Positions 186-8,138 of a DNA stretch of 64,000 bases are shown here, piece by piece. The DNA comes from Salibacter halophilus (lineage in GTDB: Bacteria > Bacteroidota > Bacteroidia > Flavobacteriales_G > Salibacteraceae). A program made the position numbers and the translations under genes. Position 1 is the stretch's first letter, and each line of letters opens with the position of its first letter. The stretch covers positions 186,001 to 250,000 of the forward strand of contig NZ_WACR01000001.1 of assembly GCF_008806325.1 (NCBI RefSeq), read 5' to 3'. Below the pieces are notes generated by a model that saw only the letters and a program-made list of their open reading frames with translations, ran no database searches and was not told the DNA's origin.

Positions 186-628
186 AATTGTGGTGGTTTA
201 TTTTGGCGGTCAATTACTGTTAAATATCTAAGAAAGAATGCAGTAATTCAAATCACCAAAAAATAATATCATGCCCTCATAACAAGAAGAGCAAACCCAA
301 ATATTGTGCATTTTCACTCCTTATTTCAGGCACATTTAAAACTAATGTACCCAAATTTCTCCAGACGAAGTTAAAATTTCACCAATTTGATAGCTGAAGG
401 AGTTAATCAACCATCTATTTTGCAAATAGCAGACTCAGCTATTTGACTTTAAATCCTCTTTTATAACTATCTTCATAAAACTAAGGAAAAGGAGTTGTTG
501 GTAATTTGGTGATTATTTAGTAATTATGAAGGGAGAAATGAATTATATAATGTTAAGTAACAACCAAAAGTCAGCTTATCACTACTAATTTTCGGGGATA
601 AGTTAACCTTTTGTCAACTTATAACCTA
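186..628. other. Non-coding stretch left of the cassette array
   Basis: No convincing gene is present. Just before the array, ATAAGTT (598-604) and AACTTAT (616-622) form a perfect 7-bp inverted repeat with an 11-nt loop, ending seven bases before the first cassette boundary at 629. In an integron this position would hold attI or another attC. I see none of the conserved bases of the attC-like repeats found further right, so the stretch is either attI-like, a secondary integration site, or unrelated. No divergent integrase gene lies here. Confidence 0.4.
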
Positions 629-651
629 GTTAGCCACAATATGAAAAGACA

Positions 652-1197
652 ATGAAACAACTGTCGACAGAAATAACAGAATTGCTGAATAAGAAATCAA
701 CAACTGACTTCTTAAACGCTGCTCGACATTTTGCGACTTTGTTGGAAAATGGTGATTTAAACCAAGAGCAATTCTACAAGGAATCTCATAAAGCATTATC
801 AGAACTTTATCGGACTGCATTGGAACTTGAGACAATTGACCTAATTCATTCGAGCTCTAAAAGCGAATTCAACGAAATTGACCAAAACGAACTCAGAGAA
901 ATGAATAAAGGTCTGATTTCTAAACTTGGAAAAGAATGCTTCTATTGGGAAGTATTCGAACCAGCATATGACAAGAAAAACGAACCGACACAAGGTTGGT
1001 TAGTAGACGACTTTGCAGACATTTATGCAGACCTAAAAGAAGAACTAACAAAAATTGACAAAGTCGGCACTGACGAATCAATAGAAGACGCTTTATGGCA
1101 ACTGAAATTTGGATTTAATCACCATTGGGGAAATCACTGTATTGACGCAATGAGAGCATTACATTATTTATGGTATGACGGAAAAACTTCGATGTGA
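652..1197 (+). CDS. DUF5063 family protein (cassette 1)
   Basis: A 181-residue soluble protein, the first gene of the cassette array. Its C-terminal half fits the DUF5063 family as I recall it: a WLVDDFADIYADLKEEL segment, then DESIEDALWQLKFGF, a Trp-Gly pair, and a final DAMRALHYLW helix. No signal peptide or membrane segment is present and the fold looks all-helical. The family has no established function. The start at 652 follows an AAAAGACA leader, which is also seen before cassette gene 4652. The stop lies 14 bases before the palindrome at 1212, leaving no room for a second gene. Family assignment is from pattern memory; function is not inferred. Confidence 0.7.
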   Translation: MKQLSTEITELLNKKSTTDFLNAARHFATLLENGDLNQEQFYKESHKALSELYRTALELETIDLIHSSSKSEFNEIDQNELREMNKGLISKLGKECFYWEVFEPAYDKKNEPTQGWLVDDFADIYADLKEELTKIDKVGTDESIEDALWQLKFGFNHHWGNHCIDAMRALHYLWYDGKTSM

Positions 1198-1211
1198 AAA
1201 TGAAAAAATAC

Positions 1212-1350
1212 TGTGGCTAACAGCACCTAAGAAAACATGGGGCGGACAGTGGTTTCCGCAAGGTTTGTTCTTCGTGGCTACTTTTGTCGCTTGCGGACAA
1301 GAAAGTGCTCCGAAAGCCCCACGTTTCTTAGCTGCAAAACGTTGTAGCCA
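1212..1350 (+). repeat. attC-like site A
   Basis: A 139-bp imperfect palindrome. The outer left arm TGTGGCTAAC pairs with the start of cassette 1 (629-638). The inner arms CACCTAAGAAAACATGGGGC and the complement around 1316-1335 (AGCCCCACGTTTCTTAGCTG) fold together. The right end GTTGTAGCCA (1341-1350) opens cassette 2. The length is comparable to Vibrio cholerae VCR sites. Confidence 0.78.
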
Positions 1351-1365
1351 ATTAAAAAAGACAAA

Positions 1366-1980
1366 ATGAGAAACTCAATGACATTACTTCTAACATTCAC
1401 TTTCCTACTTTTAGCAAGGTTCAGTGGAAAGAAGGACGAAGTAAAAATTTGGACAGAACAAACGACAGTTGATAAGGCGATTGACTTTGAAAATTCGCTT
1501 AGTAAACAAATAGAAGTTCTCGACAAGAATGTCTCGCTCTCAAAAAGCATTTATCCTCTAGTTGACAAGTACAAATTAGCAAAGCCAATAATAATTCAAC
1601 GTGAGCAGACGGGTTTTTTACCTCTTTACGCTGAATACTTTTATTCTGAATCAGACTCAATTATCAGATATATAAGTTATGACTGGGAAAGGGAGAAATA
1701 TGGAAATTATTTCAAGAAACAAGAAATATGGGAAGTAGAAAGCAAAAAACTGAAACAGTACAATTCTGAATACGAGAAAATAAAATCGACTTTAATCGAG
1801 CAACTCGGTGAACCGACAAATCAGGATACAGAACCGCAAAAGACAGAATCAACTTCAGGACGAGGAGATTACTTGACTAGAAGTACAGTCTGGGAGACAG
1901 ATAATCACTATTCCAAATTGACTATGATTTTTGAATCAATGACTTACAGAATTAGGTGGTACTATTACTGGAAAAAATAA
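1366..1980 (+). CDS. Exported hypothetical protein (cassette 2)
   Basis: A 204-residue protein that I do not recognise. It opens with a hydrophobic signal (MRNSMTLLLTFTFLLLARF) followed by a Lys-rich segment, so export is likely. The position where a lipobox cysteine would be expected reads ARFSGKK and has no cysteine, so it is either a non-lipidated secreted protein or one that lost its cysteine. The mature part is rich in Lys, Glu and Tyr, with a Trp/Tyr-rich C-terminus (RIRWYYYWKK). The stop is eight bases before the next palindrome. Start chosen at ATG 1366, 16 bases after the cassette's GTTGTAGCCA core. Confidence 0.6.
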   Translation: MRNSMTLLLTFTFLLLARFSGKKDEVKIWTEQTTVDKAIDFENSLSKQIEVLDKNVSLSKSIYPLVDKYKLAKPIIIQREQTGFLPLYAEYFYSESDSIIRYISYDWEREKYGNYFKKQEIWEVESKKLKQYNSEYEKIKSTLIEQLGEPTNQDTEPQKTESTSGRGDYLTRSTVWETDNHYSKLTMIFESMTYRIRWYYYWKK

Positions 1981-1987
1981 AATAACT

Positions 1988-2126
1988 GGCTACAACAGCA
2001 CCTAAGAAAACATGGGGCGGGTAGTGATAAACGCCAAGTTCGTTCTTCGTGGCTATATTTGTCACAGGCGGATAGGAAAGTGCTCCAAAAAGCCCCACGT
2101 TTCTTAGCTGCAAAACGTTAATGTGC
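1988..2126 (+). repeat. attC-like site B
   Basis: TGGCTACAAC (1988-1997) is the exact reverse complement of the start of cassette 2 (1341-1350). Inner arms around 2000-2020 and 2089-2110 (CACCTAAGAAAACATGGGGC against AGCCCCACGTTTCTTAGCTG) repeat site A almost exactly. The right end GTTAATGTGC (2117-2126) starts the gene-less cassette 3. Confidence 0.78.
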
Positions 2127-2426
2127 CATGTGAACCTCGGTGCTGATTTATCGGGCTGATTACGAATGATGATGCTGGATAAGGGGTTTAAGAAACATGC
2201 CGACAGAGTTTGATAGTTGGTTAGGCTCGGACAGTTAAGGATTGTTTTGGTATTTGGTTGGACTGAAAAATGAGTCACCATATTGGCTGATGAGCAATCA
2301 ATTTTTTGATGGAACTTAAGCGAAGTTTTTGAGTCGCTTTTTTTCGATAATTTAGTTGAGTATAGGTTTAAGTTAAAATTGCGATCTGGCATGGTTTCTA
2401 ATTTCGTGTCGGACAGATAAAAACAC
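2127..2426 (+). other. Cassette 3 body without a recognisable gene
   Basis: About 300 bp between sites B and C. On the + strand I find only tiny open frames (12 and 15 codons). The long open frame on the opposite strand runs into both flanking palindromes and encodes no recognisable motif, so I treat it as a by-product of the palindromes. The cassette's start GTTAATGTGCC matches the left arm of site C (GGCACATAAC, 2427-2436) apart from one extra base, so it is a bona fide cassette by the arm test. It could be a promoter or RNA cassette, or a decayed gene. Confidence 0.5.
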
Positions 2427-2564
2427 GGCACATAACATTGGTTAAAAAACATAGGGCGGACAATGGTTTCCGCTGGTTTCGGGTTCTTAGAAAGTTTGGT
2501 TTCGGCCGGACAGAAAAGTGCTTCGTAGCGCCCTACGTTTTTTTACCCGAGACCGTTGGCGATA
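2427..2564 (+). repeat. attC-like site C
   Basis: Left arm GGCACATAAC (2427-2436) pairs, with a one-base bulge, with the start of cassette 3 (2117-2127). The inner part shares the long block found in sites E, F and I, including ACATAGGGCGGACA, TTGGTTTCGGCC and CAGAAAAGTGCTTCGTAGCG. The right end GTTGGCGATA (2555-2564) opens cassette 4. Confidence 0.78.
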
Positions 2565-2575
2565 ATTAAGAAAAT

Positions 2576-3538
2576 ATGATTGGAACAATTTTAGGAATCG
2601 GTGGAATAGTACTTACTCTGATATTTGGAGTATATACTATTTGGACCACAAAAAAATCTCAAAAAAAAGTATCAATTGGATTAGAAAAAAAAGAATGCTA
2701 TAGCCTTTTTAAGAAAGAGATAAATAGACTGAATATTGATGTTAACTATGCAGGAAATAGCATTGATAATTATCTTATTCTATTCAAAGGAACTCTTGTA
2801 AATAATGGACATAAAGATATAGACAAATCGAGTGTTTATAAACCATTAAGAATAAAATCAAAAAATGAATTCAAATGGTTAGAATCAAGTTTATCAGAAG
2901 TACCCCAAGGTGCCACCGTTGACTTAAACAAGTTAGACGACACAACATTGGAAATAAAATGGGATTTACTCAAAAAAGGTGAACAGATAGAGTTCGAAAC
3001 ATTAATCGAAATCCCTCAAGAAACTGAAATTGAAGATATCAGTGACGAATTCTATAACTCTTTAGATTTTGATTTCAGAATAACAGATGTCAATAACGTT
3101 GATAAATTATCTGAAACCTTCCCAAAAGAGAAGAAGAAAATTAGGAGAAAAAGAAAACTTCTGATTATGGGGGTATTCACATTTATTGCTGGGTTATATA
3201 TTCTATTCTCACCTGAACTACCAGAATACTTATCACTCTTTAAAGACAAAAAAGAAATTCATTATTTAGCTCAATATGGAAATGAAAACAAGTCTATAAA
3301 TGTTACCCCTAATTCAGAAGGGCAAGTGATTGTTCAAAATGGTGATAACGAAGAGGAACTTTCAGTTGAGGATTTCAATAAGCAAATATCATTATTGAAA
3401 ATTGATACTGTTGTTAGCCAACCTGATTCCTTCTTGTTCAATCGTATTATGGGAATCATTTATCTACTTACAAGTATTATGGCCTTTATCTTATTCTTTA
3501 AAATTAAACTATCGCCAACAATGGCTAAAAAATCATAA
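2576..3538 (+). CDS. Membrane protein of unknown function (cassette 4)
   Basis: A 320-residue protein with three predicted membrane segments: one at the N-terminus (about residues 4-24, TILGIGGIVLTLIFGVYTIW), one near 195-215 (LLIMGVFTFIAGLYILF) and one near the C-terminus (about 290-308). A soluble, Lys/Glu-rich domain of about 170 residues lies between the first two. I do not recognise the family. The last ten codons lie inside the attC-like site D (3510-3584), so its C-terminal residues are dictated by the recombination site. The start ATG 2576 is 12 bases after the cassette core. Confidence 0.6.
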   Translation: MIGTILGIGGIVLTLIFGVYTIWTTKKSQKKVSIGLEKKECYSLFKKEINRLNIDVNYAGNSIDNYLILFKGTLVNNGHKDIDKSSVYKPLRIKSKNEFKWLESSLSEVPQGATVDLNKLDDTTLEIKWDLLKKGEQIEFETLIEIPQETEIEDISDEFYNSLDFDFRITDVNNVDKLSETFPKEKKKIRRKRKLLIMGVFTFIAGLYILFSPELPEYLSLFKDKKEIHYLAQYGNENKSINVTPNSEGQVIVQNGDNEEELSVEDFNKQISLLKIDTVVSQPDSFLFNRIMGIIYLLTSIMAFILFFKIKLSPTMAKKS

Positions 3539-3584
3539 CTGCCCTTCGGGACAGCAACGCTTTTTAGCCTAACCGTTAGGCAGC
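3510..3584 (+). repeat. Short attC-like site D of a different type
   Basis: Only 75 bp. Left arm TATCGCCAAC (3510-3519) is the exact complement of the start of cassette 4 (2555-2564). Inner arms GGCTAAAAA and TTTTTAGCC flank a small GC-rich hairpin with TGCCCTTCGGGACAG. The right end GTTAGGC (3575-3581) is an exact fit to the classical attC core GTTRRRY. Its inner sequence is unrelated to sites A-C, so this cassette was probably captured from another lineage. Confidence 0.75.
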
Positions 3585-3590
3585 ATTAAA

Positions 3591-3710
3591 ATGAAAAAAC
3601 TGATTACAAAGGAATTAAAGAAATACCTTGCGAAAGGCTTCGAAATTGTTAGTCATACAAAAGGGATTGCAAAATATGAATGTTTGGTTTCAAGACCATG
3701 CGTTAATTAA
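3591..3710 (+). CDS. Short hypothetical protein, 39 residues (cassette 5)
   Basis: ATG at 3591, seven bases after the GTTAGGCAGC core, opens a 39-codon frame ending TAA at 3710. The peptide is basic (MKKLITKELKKYLAKGFEIV start) with two cysteines near the end. Position and spacing after the cassette core match the other cassette genes, which is the main support. No attC left arm matching GTTAGGCAGC follows it. The 139 bp to the next gene hold nothing recognisable, so its own attC seems to have been lost and it is fused to cassette 6. Function unknown; it may be the truncated start of a longer gene. Confidence 0.4.
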   Translation: MKKLITKELKKYLAKGFEIVSHTKGIAKYECLVSRPCVN

Positions 3711-3849
3711 AGACTAATGCAGTCTTTAGAGAGAAAGTGATAAAACGAAATTGTTATCATAAAATGATAGTAAGTGATAAACTGAAAAGTTAGGCCGTTA
3801 ATCTTCAACTATTATAAACCGTGACAAATACGTAACTAAAACAATCGAT

Positions 3850-4434
3850 ATGAAAAATTCAATCTTAATTCTCACAATTATTTTCATGACAGGCTGTAAA
3901 GCTTGGGATCCTTCAATGATATCAGTCCAAAAGGATCCAATCTCTCCTAAACTTCTCTCACTAGAAAGAAGAATGGAAGACTTAGCTAATACAACTGTAA
4001 ATACGAATGATGATGAGCTGAAGGTATTCACTGAAGAGGTTGAAAAGAACCTCATTAATCCATATGGTGATAAATACGGTTACATCGCATACAAGAAGAA
4101 TGTACTTGACTATAGTCCGGGAATGGGCATGTTATTGTTATCTAGTTTTACATTAACAGTACCAAACTTGTTTGGTATGCCATATCAAACTATTAAGTAC
4201 AAAGTAGAAGTTGAGCTAAGAATAATGGATAGTCAGAATAGATTGATCGGTAAATATTCAGCAATTGGCGAAGCTAAATCTACCGTAGCATACTACTATG
4301 GATACTCTATAAAAAGTGCTGTTAAAAGGACATATCCTGAAGCGATAAAAGATGCGTTCAGTAAAATTCGTCCTCAAATCCAAGCAGATGTAAAAAGACT
4401 AAACAAGGCCCTAAAAGAAGCAGGGAAACTGTAA
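3850..4434 (+). CDS. Lipoprotein of unknown function (cassette 6)
   Basis: A 194-residue protein with a short hydrophobic leader ending in a lipobox (IIFMTGC; Cys16), so it is predicted to be a lipid-anchored envelope protein. The mature part has a central glycine/hydrophobic stretch (SPGMGMLLLSSFTLTVPNLFGMP) followed by alternating strands and a Lys-rich C-terminal helix. I do not recognise the family. No clear cassette core is placed at the usual 10-25 bases before this start; GTTAGGC at 3791 is the nearest candidate. Its 3' palindrome (site E) does not pair with it, which points to a rearranged junction. Confidence 0.6.
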   Translation: MKNSILILTIIFMTGCKAWDPSMISVQKDPISPKLLSLERRMEDLANTTVNTNDDELKVFTEEVEKNLINPYGDKYGYIAYKKNVLDYSPGMGMLLLSSFTLTVPNLFGMPYQTIKYKVEVELRIMDSQNRLIGKYSAIGEAKSTVAYYYGYSIKSAVKRTYPEAIKDAFSKIRPQIQADVKRLNKALKEAGKL

Positions 4435-4440
4435 AGAAAC

Positions 4441-4636
4441 TACACAACAGCACCTATGAATACATAGGCCGGACACTTCGAGAAGCTCAGTGCATAGCAG
4501 TGGTTTATTCGCCTTTGGCTCATGAACTCCCTGCGGTAGGTTCCGCAAGTTCTGGATTCTTAACAAGTTTGGTTTCGGCCAGACAGAAAAGTGCTTCGTA
4601 GCACCCTACGTTTTTTACCCGAAACCGTTGTGCGTC
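4441..4636 (+). repeat. attC-like site E with an internal insertion
   Basis: At 196 bp this is the longest copy. It shares ACATAGG(C)CGGACA, AACAAGTTTGGTTTCGGCC and CAGAAAAGTGCTTCGTAGC with sites C, F and I, but about 70 bp (roughly 4473-4540) are inserted between the GGCCGGACA block and the GGATTCTTAACAAG block. The insert begins CTTCGAGAAGCTCAGTGCAT. The right end GTTGTGCGTC (4627-4636) opens cassette 7. The left arm (TACACAAC) has no partner at the start of cassette 5 or 6. Confidence 0.7.
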
Positions 4637-4651
4637 ATGCAAAAAAAGACA

Positions 4652-5443
4652 ATGAATAAGGAAAAGATTGCCATAATGAAACAAACCAAACGACTAAAAC
4701 TAAGTCGTTGGCAGACTCTTGACCATTTTTTCATTGTATTGTTCATTCTATTCATACCCGGACTAACTCTTTTCAGTCTATTTGAAATTTACGTCACTGA
4801 AACTTATGACGGAGTTAGAACTGTGGACGAACTCATTTCGACAACTTGGCCTTGGATAATTCCTGCGGCTGTCTTTTACTTCATTCAGAAAAGACGACTA
4901 AGATTTAGAGAAGTAAAAGTTAAGTACACTGACCAAGAATTTCAAGAAGCAATTGAAAGGACAGCAAAAGAGTATGAATGGCAAATTGAATTCAACGACA
5001 AAAAAATATTCCGGGCTTACCGACCTTGGAATTGGACAGGCAGTTGGGGAGAAATGATTACAATAATCAAAGACAAAGACAGACTTTTATTGAACAGTAT
5101 TTGCGACCCGAATAAATGGAGCTCTGTAGCTTCATTCGGTTGGAATAAGAGAAATATTGACACTTTTCTTAATAACCTTGTTGACGTAAAGAATGACGTT
5201 CCAGTTCAAAGGAATATCGAGAAACCTGAAAAAGAGTGGACATTAAAAAAGGTTGTAATTCGACTGTTTGCCTATCCATTTTGTTTGTTTCTTATTGGTT
5301 TAGGTGTTTACATGATTCTCTACCCTAGCAATTGGAAATCACAAATAGCAGGAATTGGAGCAATGACAATAGCTGCATTTTACCTGTACACTGACTTAAA
5401 AATGATAATGAAAATAAAAGCACGAACGCACAACAATGGTTAA
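4652..5443 (+). CDS. Four-helix membrane protein of unknown function (cassette 7)
   Basis: About 263 residues from ATG 4652. Two N-terminal membrane helices (FFIVLFILFIPGLTLFSLF; WPWIIPAAVFYFIQ) and two C-terminal ones (AYPFCLFLIGLGVYMILY; AGIGAMTIAAFYLYT) bracket a soluble domain of about 110 residues with a Trp-rich PWNWTGSWGEM segment. The family is not recognised. The start is uncertain: TTG 4628 lies in the attC core and is rejected, ATG 4637 or 4676 are possible. I prefer 4652 because AAAAAGACAATG repeats the leader of cassette 1. The last codons (ARTHNNG) lie in site F. Confidence 0.6.
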   Translation: MNKEKIAIMKQTKRLKLSRWQTLDHFFIVLFILFIPGLTLFSLFEIYVTETYDGVRTVDELISTTWPWIIPAAVFYFIQKRRLRFREVKVKYTDQEFQEAIERTAKEYEWQIEFNDKKIFRAYRPWNWTGSWGEMITIIKDKDRLLLNSICDPNKWSSVASFGWNKRNIDTFLNNLVDVKNDVPVQRNIEKPEKEWTLKKVVIRLFAYPFCLFLIGLGVYMILYPSNWKSQIAGIGAMTIAAFYLYTDLKMIMKIKARTHNNG

Positions 5444-5552
5444 AAAACATAGGTCGGACAGTGGTTTTCGCGAGTTTAAGATTCTTAGTAAGTTTGGTTT
5501 TGGCCAGACAAAAAAGTGCTTCGTAGCGCCCTATGTCTCTTAGTTGTAAACC
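5425..5552 (+). repeat. attC-like site F
   Basis: Left arm AACGCACAAC (5425-5434) pairs 9/10 with the start of cassette 7 (4627-4636). The central block is the same as in sites C, E and I. The right end is GTTGTAAACC (5543-5552), which replaces the CTGCAAAACGTT tail of other copies and opens cassette 8. Confidence 0.78.
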
Positions 5553-5562
5553 ATTAAAAAAT

Positions 5563-5949
5563 ATGAGAAACCTAATTGTATTAGTTTTGATTTGCTTTTC
5601 AACTGTCACTTTTGGACAGACGAATGAATGCAAGAAATTTAAAAACGGAAAATTCAAAATTATTGATGCAGAAGTTGGGAATTCAATTATCACACGAAAA
5701 GGATCAAAGCAAATTGAATATGGAGAAGGATCAAAGCTGAAACTTGAATTTAAAGTGAAATGGGTTGACGATTGTACGTATACCCTTGAACTTAAAAAAG
5801 TCCTTGAAAATCCGAATAATATTGAATTACCAGAAGGAATGATCTTGACGATTGAGATAATTGAGACGAAAGAAAATTCATATGTACAGAAATCAACATC
5901 AAATCTGTATGATATGGTTTTGGAAAGTGAACTTATTAAAATAGAATAA
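5563..5949 (+). CDS. Small secreted protein of unknown function (cassette 8)
   Basis: A 128-residue protein from ATG 5563. A longer frame starting at 5533 lies inside site F and is rejected. The signal peptide MRNLIVLVLICFSTVTFG is followed by QTNECKKFKNGKFKI. Two mature cysteines (in NECKKF and DDCTYT) may form a disulfide. The pattern of CxxFKxGKF, then a KVKWxDDCTYTLEL strand and a P-E-G-M-x-LTIEIIETKENSY segment matches a family of small secreted beta-rich proteins that I have seen in Flavobacteriales, without known function. It is a typical single-gene cassette. Confidence 0.62.
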   Translation: MRNLIVLVLICFSTVTFGQTNECKKFKNGKFKIIDAEVGNSIITRKGSKQIEYGEGSKLKLEFKVKWVDDCTYTLELKKVLENPNNIELPEGMILTIEIIETKENSYVQKSTSNLYDMVLESELIKIE

Positions 5950-5953
5950 AAAC

Positions 5954-6089
5954 GGTTTACAACAACGCATATAGCTTATGGCTGGTGAACGGCTAAAAGC
6001 AAGGTTTCCACTCCATAGTCAGCCTTGGTTCCGGTGGACAGGATAGTGCCTTAAACCGCCACAAAGCCTTATCCAAACCGTTCTACACA
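5954..6089 (+). repeat. attC-like site G, second type
   Basis: Left arm GGTTTACAAC (5954-5963) is the exact complement of the start of cassette 8 (5543-5552). The interior (CGCATATAGCTTATGGCTGG ... GCCACAAAGCCTTATCC) differs from sites A-F, but keeps a GGACAGGATAGTGC block recalling GGACAGAAAAGTGC. The right end is GTTCTACACA (6080-6089). Confidence 0.72.
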
Positions 6090-6099
6090 ATTTTAAAAG

Positions 6100-6546
6100 A
6101 TGAAATTCGAAGACAAGATATTAATTGATGCTCCCTGCAAGGACGTTTACTCTTTTTTCGAAAAGATGAAAGAGAATTATTTGGCTTGGCACCAGGAACA
6201 TATCGCATTCGAATGGAGAAAAGGAAAAGGATTAGAAGTTGGAAATGTTTTTTACTTCGAAGAAGAAATTGGGGGACAACTTCTGAAGAAAGAAACACGA
6301 TTCACCAAAATCATTCCTAACCAATACATTGAGTTTAAAATGGTCAATTGGTTTTACAGGTTGTTCATACCGAAAATGACTTTCATCTTTGAAGAAGAAA
6401 AAGGTGCTTGCCTTTTTACTGCTCAAGTGTTTTTACGTGGCATCGGACCTCTTGGCAAATGGACGCACAGAAAAGAATTCAAAGCAGTTAAAAAACATAT
6501 GAAGGAAGAAGGGATAAACCTCAAACGCATTATTGAGGAAAAATAA
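6100..6546 (+). CDS. SRPBCC (START/Bet v1-like) family protein (cassette 9)
   Basis: A 148-residue soluble protein. The N-terminus (FEDKILIDAPCKDVYSFFEKMKENYLAWH) is the first strand and helix typical of SRPBCC lipid/polyketide-binding folds. Next come a WRKGKGLEVGNVFYFEEEIGG beta hairpin, a KETRFTKIIPNQYIEFKM strand pair, and a long C-terminal helix (KAVKKHMKEEGINLKRIIEE). Family members bind hydrophobic ligands or act as cyclases, but no specific ligand can be inferred. The start ATG 6100 lies 11 bases after the cassette core. It is the only cassette gene besides the DUF5063 one with a recognisable fold. Confidence 0.7.
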   Translation: MKFEDKILIDAPCKDVYSFFEKMKENYLAWHQEHIAFEWRKGKGLEVGNVFYFEEEIGGQLLKKETRFTKIIPNQYIEFKMVNWFYRLFIPKMTFIFEEEKGACLFTAQVFLRGIGPLGKWTHRKEFKAVKKHMKEEGINLKRIIEEK

Positions 6547-6550
6547 AAAC

Positions 6551-6689
6551 GACCGCACAAAATCTGCTATAGCAAATGCGGGTCTCACTGCGCAAAAATG
6601 AAGATATTGCAACTAAATAACAATTGGCATGGTGGACAAAGATTAGGTTTCAAATCCCGAACTTGCCATAGATAGGGCCATTGGACGTA
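6551..6689 (+). repeat. attC-like site H, degenerate
   Basis: The arms TATAGCAAATGCGGG (6579-6593 region) and CCCGAACTTGCCATA (6656-6670 region) are complementary with few mismatches. The right end ATTGGACGTA (6680-6689) matches the left arm of the next site (TACGGCCAAC, 7531-7540) at 8/10, so the core G appears to have changed to A. The left arm does not pair with the start of cassette 9. A GGTGGACA word recalls the GGCGGACA of other sites. Confidence 0.55.
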
Positions 6690-6702
6690 ATTTTAACTTC
6701 AC

Positions 6703-7551
6703 ATGCAAAGAAAATTTATTAAAAATGTTGGGTTTGAATTTACTTATGAAAAAGTGAGTTTGATTCTTCAATTAATCACAGTCACAAAGGAAAACCACAA
6801 TTTATCTGAAGAACAACTTAAAGGATTAATACAGGCTACATCAGATTACCTAAGCAGGATTGATAATAAAACAAATCTACTAGAACTATTTGGTGAAGTT
6901 GAACTCAAAGAAGAGCAAATTAAGGTCAATGACTTTACGTTTTATAAATTTATTTCCAAAGACACCTATGAGAACTTTATAAGAAAAGGTAAATTTCAAT
7001 TAGGTTCCTTAAAATATTATAGAGAAATAGAGAGAGATAAAAGTCGCGATGAAAAAGAAGGTTTCTGTAATCTAATTTTTGAAAATCATAACCAACAGGT
7101 GTTTACTTCAGCAATTTCAGGTTTTAACTTTTACATTTTGTGTGGAACACATAAGCTAGATGAAAAACATCACATGACTGAGAATTTTGGAGACTATATC
7201 CTTAAAATCAAAAGTATAAGTTCATTTGCTAATTCTATTAAAAAGGCAATTGGTGCTAAGGAGTGGAAAATACAGAAAGTTTACTATACTGATTTTAAGG
7301 CACATAAAATCAAAACAAATCTAAAAGATTTTGAAGGAGCTAATCCTGAATTATCAGCTGAAATTTTCAAGCTGATTCAAAAACATTCTGTGTTTCCCAG
7401 CATTTTTATGAAACCAAAAATATTTAAGCCTGAGAATGAACTTAGACTTACGTTCAAAATGGATAAAAATGTAAAGCCAAAACTGAATTTTGACAACAAG
7501 GGACTTCTTGAATATATAGAAATAGAAAACTACGGCCAACAATGGGTATAA
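6703..7551 (+). CDS. Hypothetical protein, possibly DUF2971-like (cassette 10)
   Basis: A 282-residue soluble protein with an N-terminal helical part of about 75 residues and then a segment FTFYKFISKDTYENFIRKGKFQLGSLKYYREIE. That segment recalls the opening of DUF2971-type proteins (YK[YF]xS, a strand, then a polar loop), but the resemblance is loose. Later there is an SIFMKPKIFKPENELRLTFK segment, which also fits such proteins (a K/R near an E-x-E-x-R motif). The function is unknown. The stop at 7549-7551 lies inside site I, so the last four residues come from the recombination site. Confidence 0.5.
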   Translation: MQRKFIKNVGFEFTYEKVSLILQLITVTKENHNLSEEQLKGLIQATSDYLSRIDNKTNLLELFGEVELKEEQIKVNDFTFYKFISKDTYENFIRKGKFQLGSLKYYREIERDKSRDEKEGFCNLIFENHNQQVFTSAISGFNFYILCGTHKLDEKHHMTENFGDYILKIKSISSFANSIKKAIGAKEWKIQKVYYTDFKAHKIKTNLKDFEGANPELSAEIFKLIQKHSVFPSIFMKPKIFKPENELRLTFKMDKNVKPKLNFDNKGLLEYIEIENYGQQWV

Positions 7552-7668
7552 AACATAGGGCGGACGATAGTCTCCGCGATTTTCGGGTTCTTAGCAGTTT
7601 TGGTCTCGGCCAGACAGAAAAGTGCTTCGTAGCGCCCTACGTCTCTTAGCTGCAAAACGTTGGCGGTA
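7531..7668 (+). repeat. attC-like site I
   Basis: Left arm TACGGCCAAC (7531-7540). Inner arms are AAAACATAGGGCGGAC and the complement around 7631-7650 (GCGCCCTACGTCTCTTAGCT). The central block is shared with C, E and F. The right end GTTGGCGGTA (7659-7668) opens the last cassette and pairs 8/10 with GACCACCAAC at 8124-8133. Confidence 0.78.
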
Positions 7669-7674
7669 ATTAAA

Positions 7675-8138
7675 ATGAATCTCGTACCCTTTGAAAATAT
7701 CAAACTAAAAAGTAAACTCAACACCGAGGAGATAGCTGAGCGCATAAGTTCTCGAGCTGAATACACAAGGCAATTCGGAATGTCCTTTCACAAAAACTCA
7801 TTCAAGGATTATGAAGGCTATGCGAATGAGAAAGAATTTAAAATTAGGCGAATATTAAAAACAGGAAGAAATTCGTTTATTCCAACTGCACATGGAAGAA
7901 TGCAAAGCCAAGGTGATAAGTGCATCATTTCAATTAAAATTCGTCTTCTTCCATTGGTTTATATTTTACTAATTTGTTTGACTGTTTTTTTAGTTCTTTT
8001 TTGCTCTTCGATCCTACCGTAGGTGATTTTGTCTTCTTATTGATACCGTATTTACTCTGCATTATCTTCTACAATATGGAATCTCAGCGATTGAAAAATG
8101 GACTAATGCAAATAATAAATAACGACCACCAACATTAA
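7675..8138 (+). pseudogene. Frameshifted two-helix membrane protein gene (last cassette)
   Basis: ATG 7675 opens a frame (MNLVPFENIKLKSKLNTEEI start) that reaches a first membrane helix (PLVYILLICLTVFLVLF) and stops at 8020-8022. In another frame the protein resumes immediately: FDPTVGDFVFLLIPYLLCII, a second membrane helix, then a charged tail ending TAA 8136-8138. The shift lies near the T-runs at 7985-8005. Joined, the two parts give an ordinary ~150-residue protein with two helices and a cytoplasmic tail. A true frameshift and a sequencing error in the T-run cannot be told apart here. The family is unknown. The remnant attC left arm at 8124-8133 overlaps its end, and the rest of that site is missing. 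Confidence 0.6.

Follow-up and report, generated by a model that had tools for sequence, protein, structure and literature searches.

A cassette array in Salibacter halophilus suggests an integron-like system of Bacteroidota, putatively driven by a recombinase lacking the IntI-specific domain

Ten co-oriented gene cassettes, with a palindromic site between each pair, occupy positions 629-8133 of the window, the 64,000-nucleotide stretch of Salibacter halophilus DNA analyzed here; coordinates and counts of the first-pass annotation hold. Judged from the sequences, the array very probably belongs to an integron-like system of Bacteroidota whose cassettes would be moved by a tyrosine recombinase without the IntI insert, a new variant putatively driven by a non-IntI integrase. 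The cassette array is supported by the circle test, by covariation in the sites, by an attI-like start, by an empty locus in a congener, and by cassette genes that recur elsewhere beside other neighbours. The label of integron array initially given stands in this part only. A classical integron is not supported, because the recombinase is without the IntI domain and groups outside the IntI clade, the R boxes are 10 nt long and rarely fit GTTRRRY, and the site model R2 is silent in the 40 genomes of other phyla examined.

The array starts with an attI-like inverted repeat. The first coordinate of each cassette listed below is that of its opening GTT, which at 6680, in cassette 9, has decayed to ATT (ATTGGACGTA); sites are about 73-200 bp long. 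The circle test counts over how many of 10 bases the start of a cassette pairs with the first box of its own site, a pairing by which an excised circle would rebuild the full palindrome.

600-631, forward strand: attI-like site, inverted repeat AAGTTAACCTTTTGTCAACTT (600-620), then ATAACCTA, then the GTT opening cassette 1; arm match 7/8
629-1340, forward strand: cassette 1, ORF 652-1197 (DUF5063; PF16702, E=2e-35), site S1 at 1212-1350; circle test 10/10
1341-2116, forward strand: cassette 2, ORF 1366-1980 (unknown), site S2 at 1987-2127; circle test 10/10
2117-2554, forward strand: cassette 3, without a clear ORF, site S3 at 2425-2564; circle test with a one-base gap
2555-3574, forward strand: cassette 4, ORF 2576-3538 (membrane protein, unknown), short site S4 at 3510-3584; circle test 10/10
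3575-4626, forward strand: cassette 5, ORF 3850-4434 (lipoprotein-like), long site S5 at 4438-4637 (model match); circle test fails
4627-5542, forward strand: cassette 6, ORF 4628-5443 (membrane protein), site S6 at 5425-5552; circle test 9/10
5543-6079, forward strand: cassette 7, ORF 5533-5949 as called (likely start 5563), site S7 at 5954-6090; circle test 10/10
6080-6679, forward strand: cassette 8, ORF 6100-6546 (SRPBCC-like), degraded site S8 at 6553-6687; circle test fails
6680-7658, forward strand: cassette 9, ORF 6703-7551 (unknown), site S9 at 7527-7669; circle test 8/10, read from the sequence
7659-8137, forward strand: cassette 10, ORF 7660-8022, lone R'' box at 8124-8133 at the end; circle test 8/10, read from the sequence

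The seven junctions reported earlier at 8-10 of 10 bases are found again (cassettes 1, 2, 4 and 7 at 10, cassette 6 at 9, cassettes 9 and 10 at 8), and the eighth, with its one-base gap, is that of cassette 3, as read from the sequence. The body of the last site is lost, no R2 match being detected past 7666. Model R1, whose training set of nine sites included five from the window, recovers eight window sites, three of them outside that set; the broader model R2 recovers nine. Neither attC nor any other family was matched in an Rfam search of the array, and the nine window sites, folded as had been suggested at the outset, show energies with no consistent strand preference. S4, singled out for its canonical core, does end in GTTAGGC (R1 score 19.8 bits), but such a core is an exception in the family. 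Among the products named from the sequence, DUF5063 was confirmed by the PF16702 match, whereas the SRPBCC assignment is met by PF10604 at E=1.3e-4 only, under the family cut-off.

Further arrays reside in the same genome at C1:64948-70084 and C3:308352-310819, and a weaker one at C3:51070-55569; R1 matches 24 times in this genome at E values up to 1. BLAST of the array found no match among phages, and among plasmids hit Persicobacter only, leading to plasmid pPP2 of Persicobacter psychrovividus. In the latter, 127 sites, all on a single strand and with a median spacing of 686 bp, are distributed over 100 kb (NZ_AP025294.1, 303371-403345), and the array is superintegron-sized. Almost all of its genes are annotated as hypothetical proteins, identical ones being repeated, and helix-turn-helix and transposase genes are inserted (L135, L137, L138). 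Intervals devoid of any ORF of 50 aa, as in cassette 3 (2117-2554), are frequent also in pPP2 (13/52).

Complementarity between cassette start and own site is a general property of these arrays. In four arrays (the window, two further arrays of the same genome, and pPP2), 24 of 54 consecutive site pairs match at 6/7 or better, where shuffling of partners predicts 1.4. With a fuller list of pPP2 sites the figure rises to 104 of 125 pairs (83% vs. 6.7% with shuffled partners). In the perfect cassettes of this plasmid, complementarity is complete over 10 nt (59/59), is down to 2% at the eleventh position, and then reappears across two to three bases. R boxes are 10 nt long (GTTR plus six residues), and conform to the canonical GTTRRRY in only 5 of 59 instances. 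The reverse-strand control of an exact de novo scan is symmetric by construction, hence uninformative. Behind the integrase stop, the first cassette matches 10/10 at 13 of 22 integrase loci, against 2% of control positions. Inverted repeats with arms of at least 7/8 mark 16 of 23 array starts (the window, and 22 adjoining an integrase) vs. 9% of random GTT positions.

The arrangement suggests how cassettes may be exchanged. A recombinase of the Xer/IntI superfamily would recombine the attI-like repeat found just downstream of its own gene with the attC-like sites that close single-gene cassettes on their 3' side. The family recombinase would itself do the cutting and joining, with the crossover presumably at the conserved GTT. 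The variable bases following the GTT would come from the cassette, and pair over 10 nt with the box that opens the cassette's own site.

The palindromic sites are a real, specific family. In an RNAalifold analysis of 109 sites from many genomes each predicted stem pair features a compensatory change. When the helix is set out explicitly with 17 pairs, pairing holds in 93% of cells and double changes occur at 17/17 pairs. The covariation score is 0.652, vs. 0.154 in shuffled and at most 0.08 in slid versions; these counts are biased towards structure because the alignment was fitted to R1, an effect which we judge too small to account for a covariation of this size. The AACA and CGTT motifs, as the GTT and AAC triplets, are near-invariant, and A-C mismatches are conserved in the stem (alignment columns 21/350 and 26/345). 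The inner ten pairs almost never change to G-U, which suggests that selection acts on DNA rather than RNA. R2, the E-values of which are rough, matches in 172 of 247 genomes (70%) of Bacteroidia, so named, like the phylum Bacteroidota, from the known organisms carrying kindred integrases and sites rather than from a marker-gene tree. Genome tallies are lower bounds, because scoring was limited to about 13 candidates in each genome. R2 found no site around 19 true IntI genes, nor in 40 genomes from other phyla, of which 19 were reached via IntI loci.

That no integrase was in sight, as first noted, holds true for the locus: the contig of the window has no PF00589 integrase gene, the bases preceding cassette 1 have no integrase remnants, and the genome, searched for IntI as had been proposed, has nothing over the IntI cut-off. 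Yet a tyrosine recombinase truncated to a C-terminal piece of 160 aa adjoins an array on contig C3, and relatives carry intact homologues of about 350-430 aa (that of Seonamhaeicola aphaedonensis, L066, for instance), in many cases next to an array. Within 45 bases downstream of the truncated C3 gene comes an attI-like repeat, then a cassette at 10/10, in a four-site array. Because the genome retains only this truncated copy, its arrays are probably frozen, and that of the window is probably a remnant which has lost its integrase. The first cassette behind the truncated gene (L015:8830-10347, on C3) encodes a full-length Drt4 defence reverse transcriptase (PADLOC, E=1e-155).

Family integrases feature N-terminal, SAM-like and catalytic domains, and lack the IntI-specific domain. 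KDR and HxLRH motifs are separated by 58-63 residues in the members measured, by 99-100 residues in true IntI, and the TIGR02249 match splits at the insert and remains under its cut-off. Insert-bearing IntI proteins form one clade (SH-aLRT 100), with the Bacteroidota integrases outside, in a rapidly built tree whose Xer rows include long branches. In sequence and fold alike, archaeal Xer proteins (4a8e, 5hxy) match best, with IntI4 (2a3v) close behind. XerC/XerD and the tandem recombinases of contig C15 were both discarded as integrases of the array, being in a different clade and having no sites beside them. The C15 pair (G000:C15:3324-4749, on a 9.5 kb contig) probably belongs to another mobile element.

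Sites and integrases are linked in position as in strand. At integrase-centred loci R2 finds 53 sites, 50 of which are downstream of the integrase and share its strand, although less DNA was searched downstream than upstream; the same is true of 25 of 28 sites at loci outside training. In whole genomes, of 25 sites within 30 kb of the integrase, 21 are downstream on its strand and the other four upstream on the opposite strand. Among the 247 genomes, 172 have R2 sites, 150 the integrase and 125 both (odds ratio 5.3, p=9e-9). Some observations tell against the proposed system: sites without integrase were found in 47 genomes and integrase without sites in 25. Many assemblies of relatives end near the integrase. 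No R2 site was detected at integrase loci L044, L056, L065, L076, L078 and L080, despite long downstream flanks. In L042 (8622-14720) a methyltransferase and a helicase directly follow the intact integrase, before the first site found; in L044 (153-7597), where no site was found, a methyltransferase and large defence-candidate proteins do so.

Comparison with relatives is consistent with mobility. In the congener G002 the same two flanking genes are convergent, about 1.1 kb apart, with no site in between. Cassette 6 has homologues in other company in G004 (75% identity), G005 (72%) and pPP2 (36%), and a homologue of cassette 5, 62% identical, is located in G005 behind another site. In L067 a homologue of cassette 2 (43%) comes first behind the integrase, with a site immediately downstream of it. 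Homologues of cassettes 5 and 6 keep the same order in G005, about 8 kb apart; single ones reside in G004, L067 and pPP2. Gene order conserved in distant relatives, which according to the first-pass annotation would have told against cassette shuffling, was not seen, sharing being limited to single cassettes or this pair.

The array might alternatively be a CALIN of a classical integron, with ordinary attC sites that a true IntI, now lost or acting from elsewhere, used to move. AAC/GTT triplets, box-spacer-stem architecture and cassette logic are those of attC, and the core of S4 is canonical. CALINs, moreover, are common, and Salinibacter is reported to have a complete classical integron (PMC9024848). 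This origin is nevertheless unlikely: the genome has no IntI over the family cut-off, position and strand tie the sites to a non-IntI recombinase, GTTRRRY fits only 5 of 59 boxes, and R2 is silent around the 19 true IntI genes as in the 40 genomes of other phyla.

If the mover is a non-IntI enzyme, it could be the housekeeping XerC/XerD pair, the adjoining integrase being incidental. The genome has two Xer-type recombinases (C5, C11), 47 R2-positive genomes have no detected family integrase, and Xer proteins can act on mobile dif-like sites. The family integrase is consistent in adjacency and strand, however, with the attI-like repeat behind it, and the involvement of XerC/XerD is very improbable. 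Even smaller is the likelihood that REP/MITE-like elements or terminators lie dispersed between genes by chance. Sites are indeed repeated, palindromic, intergenic and conserved in sequence, but dispersed palindromes would not make the start of a gene complementary to the box that follows it, nor would all of them share one orientation downstream of a single integrase family. That the inner stem almost entirely avoids G-U speaks against selection as RNA, and circle-test values far over the shuffled level in independent arrays refute this origin.

The integron-like system favored here resembles classical integrons, sedentary chromosomal superintegrons and CALINs included, in having co-oriented single-gene cassettes which end in palindromic sites with a GTT/AAC joint, an inner stem with conserved mismatches, an attI beside the integrase, and long arrays with duplicated hypothetical genes, as in pPP2. 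It differs in the recombinase, which lies outside the IntI clade without the IntI-specific domain and has an extra N-terminal domain, in the 10-nt R boxes rarely fitting GTTRRRY, in the conserved A-C mismatches, and in that integrase and cassettes point the same way in most loci. Catalytic and SAM domains are shared with XerA/XerC/XerD and with NF040815 (site-specific tyrosine recombinase/integron integrase). Xer proteins resolve chromosome dimers at dif, and we know of no cassette arrays attributed to them. An integron-like subgroup of simple tyrosine recombinases, in which the insertion is incompletely conserved, has been delineated (Smyshlyaev et al. 2021, PMC8138268); unlike here, no cassette arrays are described for members without the insertion in the parts of that paper drawn upon.

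IntegronFinder 2.0 reported one complete integron in Bacteroidetes proper, in Salinibacter ruber M1 (PMC9024848), and a set of eleven taxon-specific attC models leaves out Bacteroidota (PMC8352920). Standard tools would miss the family integrase, because detection demands the IntI-specific domain (PMC9668308). Standard integron surveys have reported almost none in Bacteroidia, against a site family present in most genomes sampled here. We lean towards the view that Bacteroidia have a widespread integron class of their own, with 10-nt R boxes and a recombinase clade which never had, or has lost, a domain held to be essential and not needed here, with a phage branch in which the integrase is short, the array divergent and the genes reversed, the whole overlooked by surveys that require the IntI domain. 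No description of the system was found in open-licence papers, preprints excluded; novelty is provisional, given the limits of this search. If the recombinase works as proposed, cassette capture would be possible without the IntI domain, a second system would be available for asking how palindromic or single-stranded sites are recognized, and a large unexplored pool of cassette genes would be accessible, one of which, in first position, encodes a phage-defence reverse transcriptase.

Arrays of the same site family are found also in IMG/VR viral contigs (L172, L177, L185, L179 and others, e.g. IMGVR_UViG_3300043411_001575), next to a short relative of the integrase, about 270-290 aa long. Here 39 of 40 sites lie upstream of the integrase, on the opposite strand. 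In four contigs checked, 20 of 21 genes are opposite to their site, whereas in arrays on chromosomes and plasmids 80 of 85 run the same way as theirs. Phage-borne integrons and attC sites (PMC9892861) are alike in that cassette sites and integrase reside on phage DNA, as in L172, L177 and L185; the short integrase, the divergent array and the reversed genes set apart the form described here from those in that report, which makes no mention of Bacteroidota. The same divergent geometry of integrase and array was observed in four bacterial genomes (G075:C2, G081:C9, G120:C7 and G266:C2).
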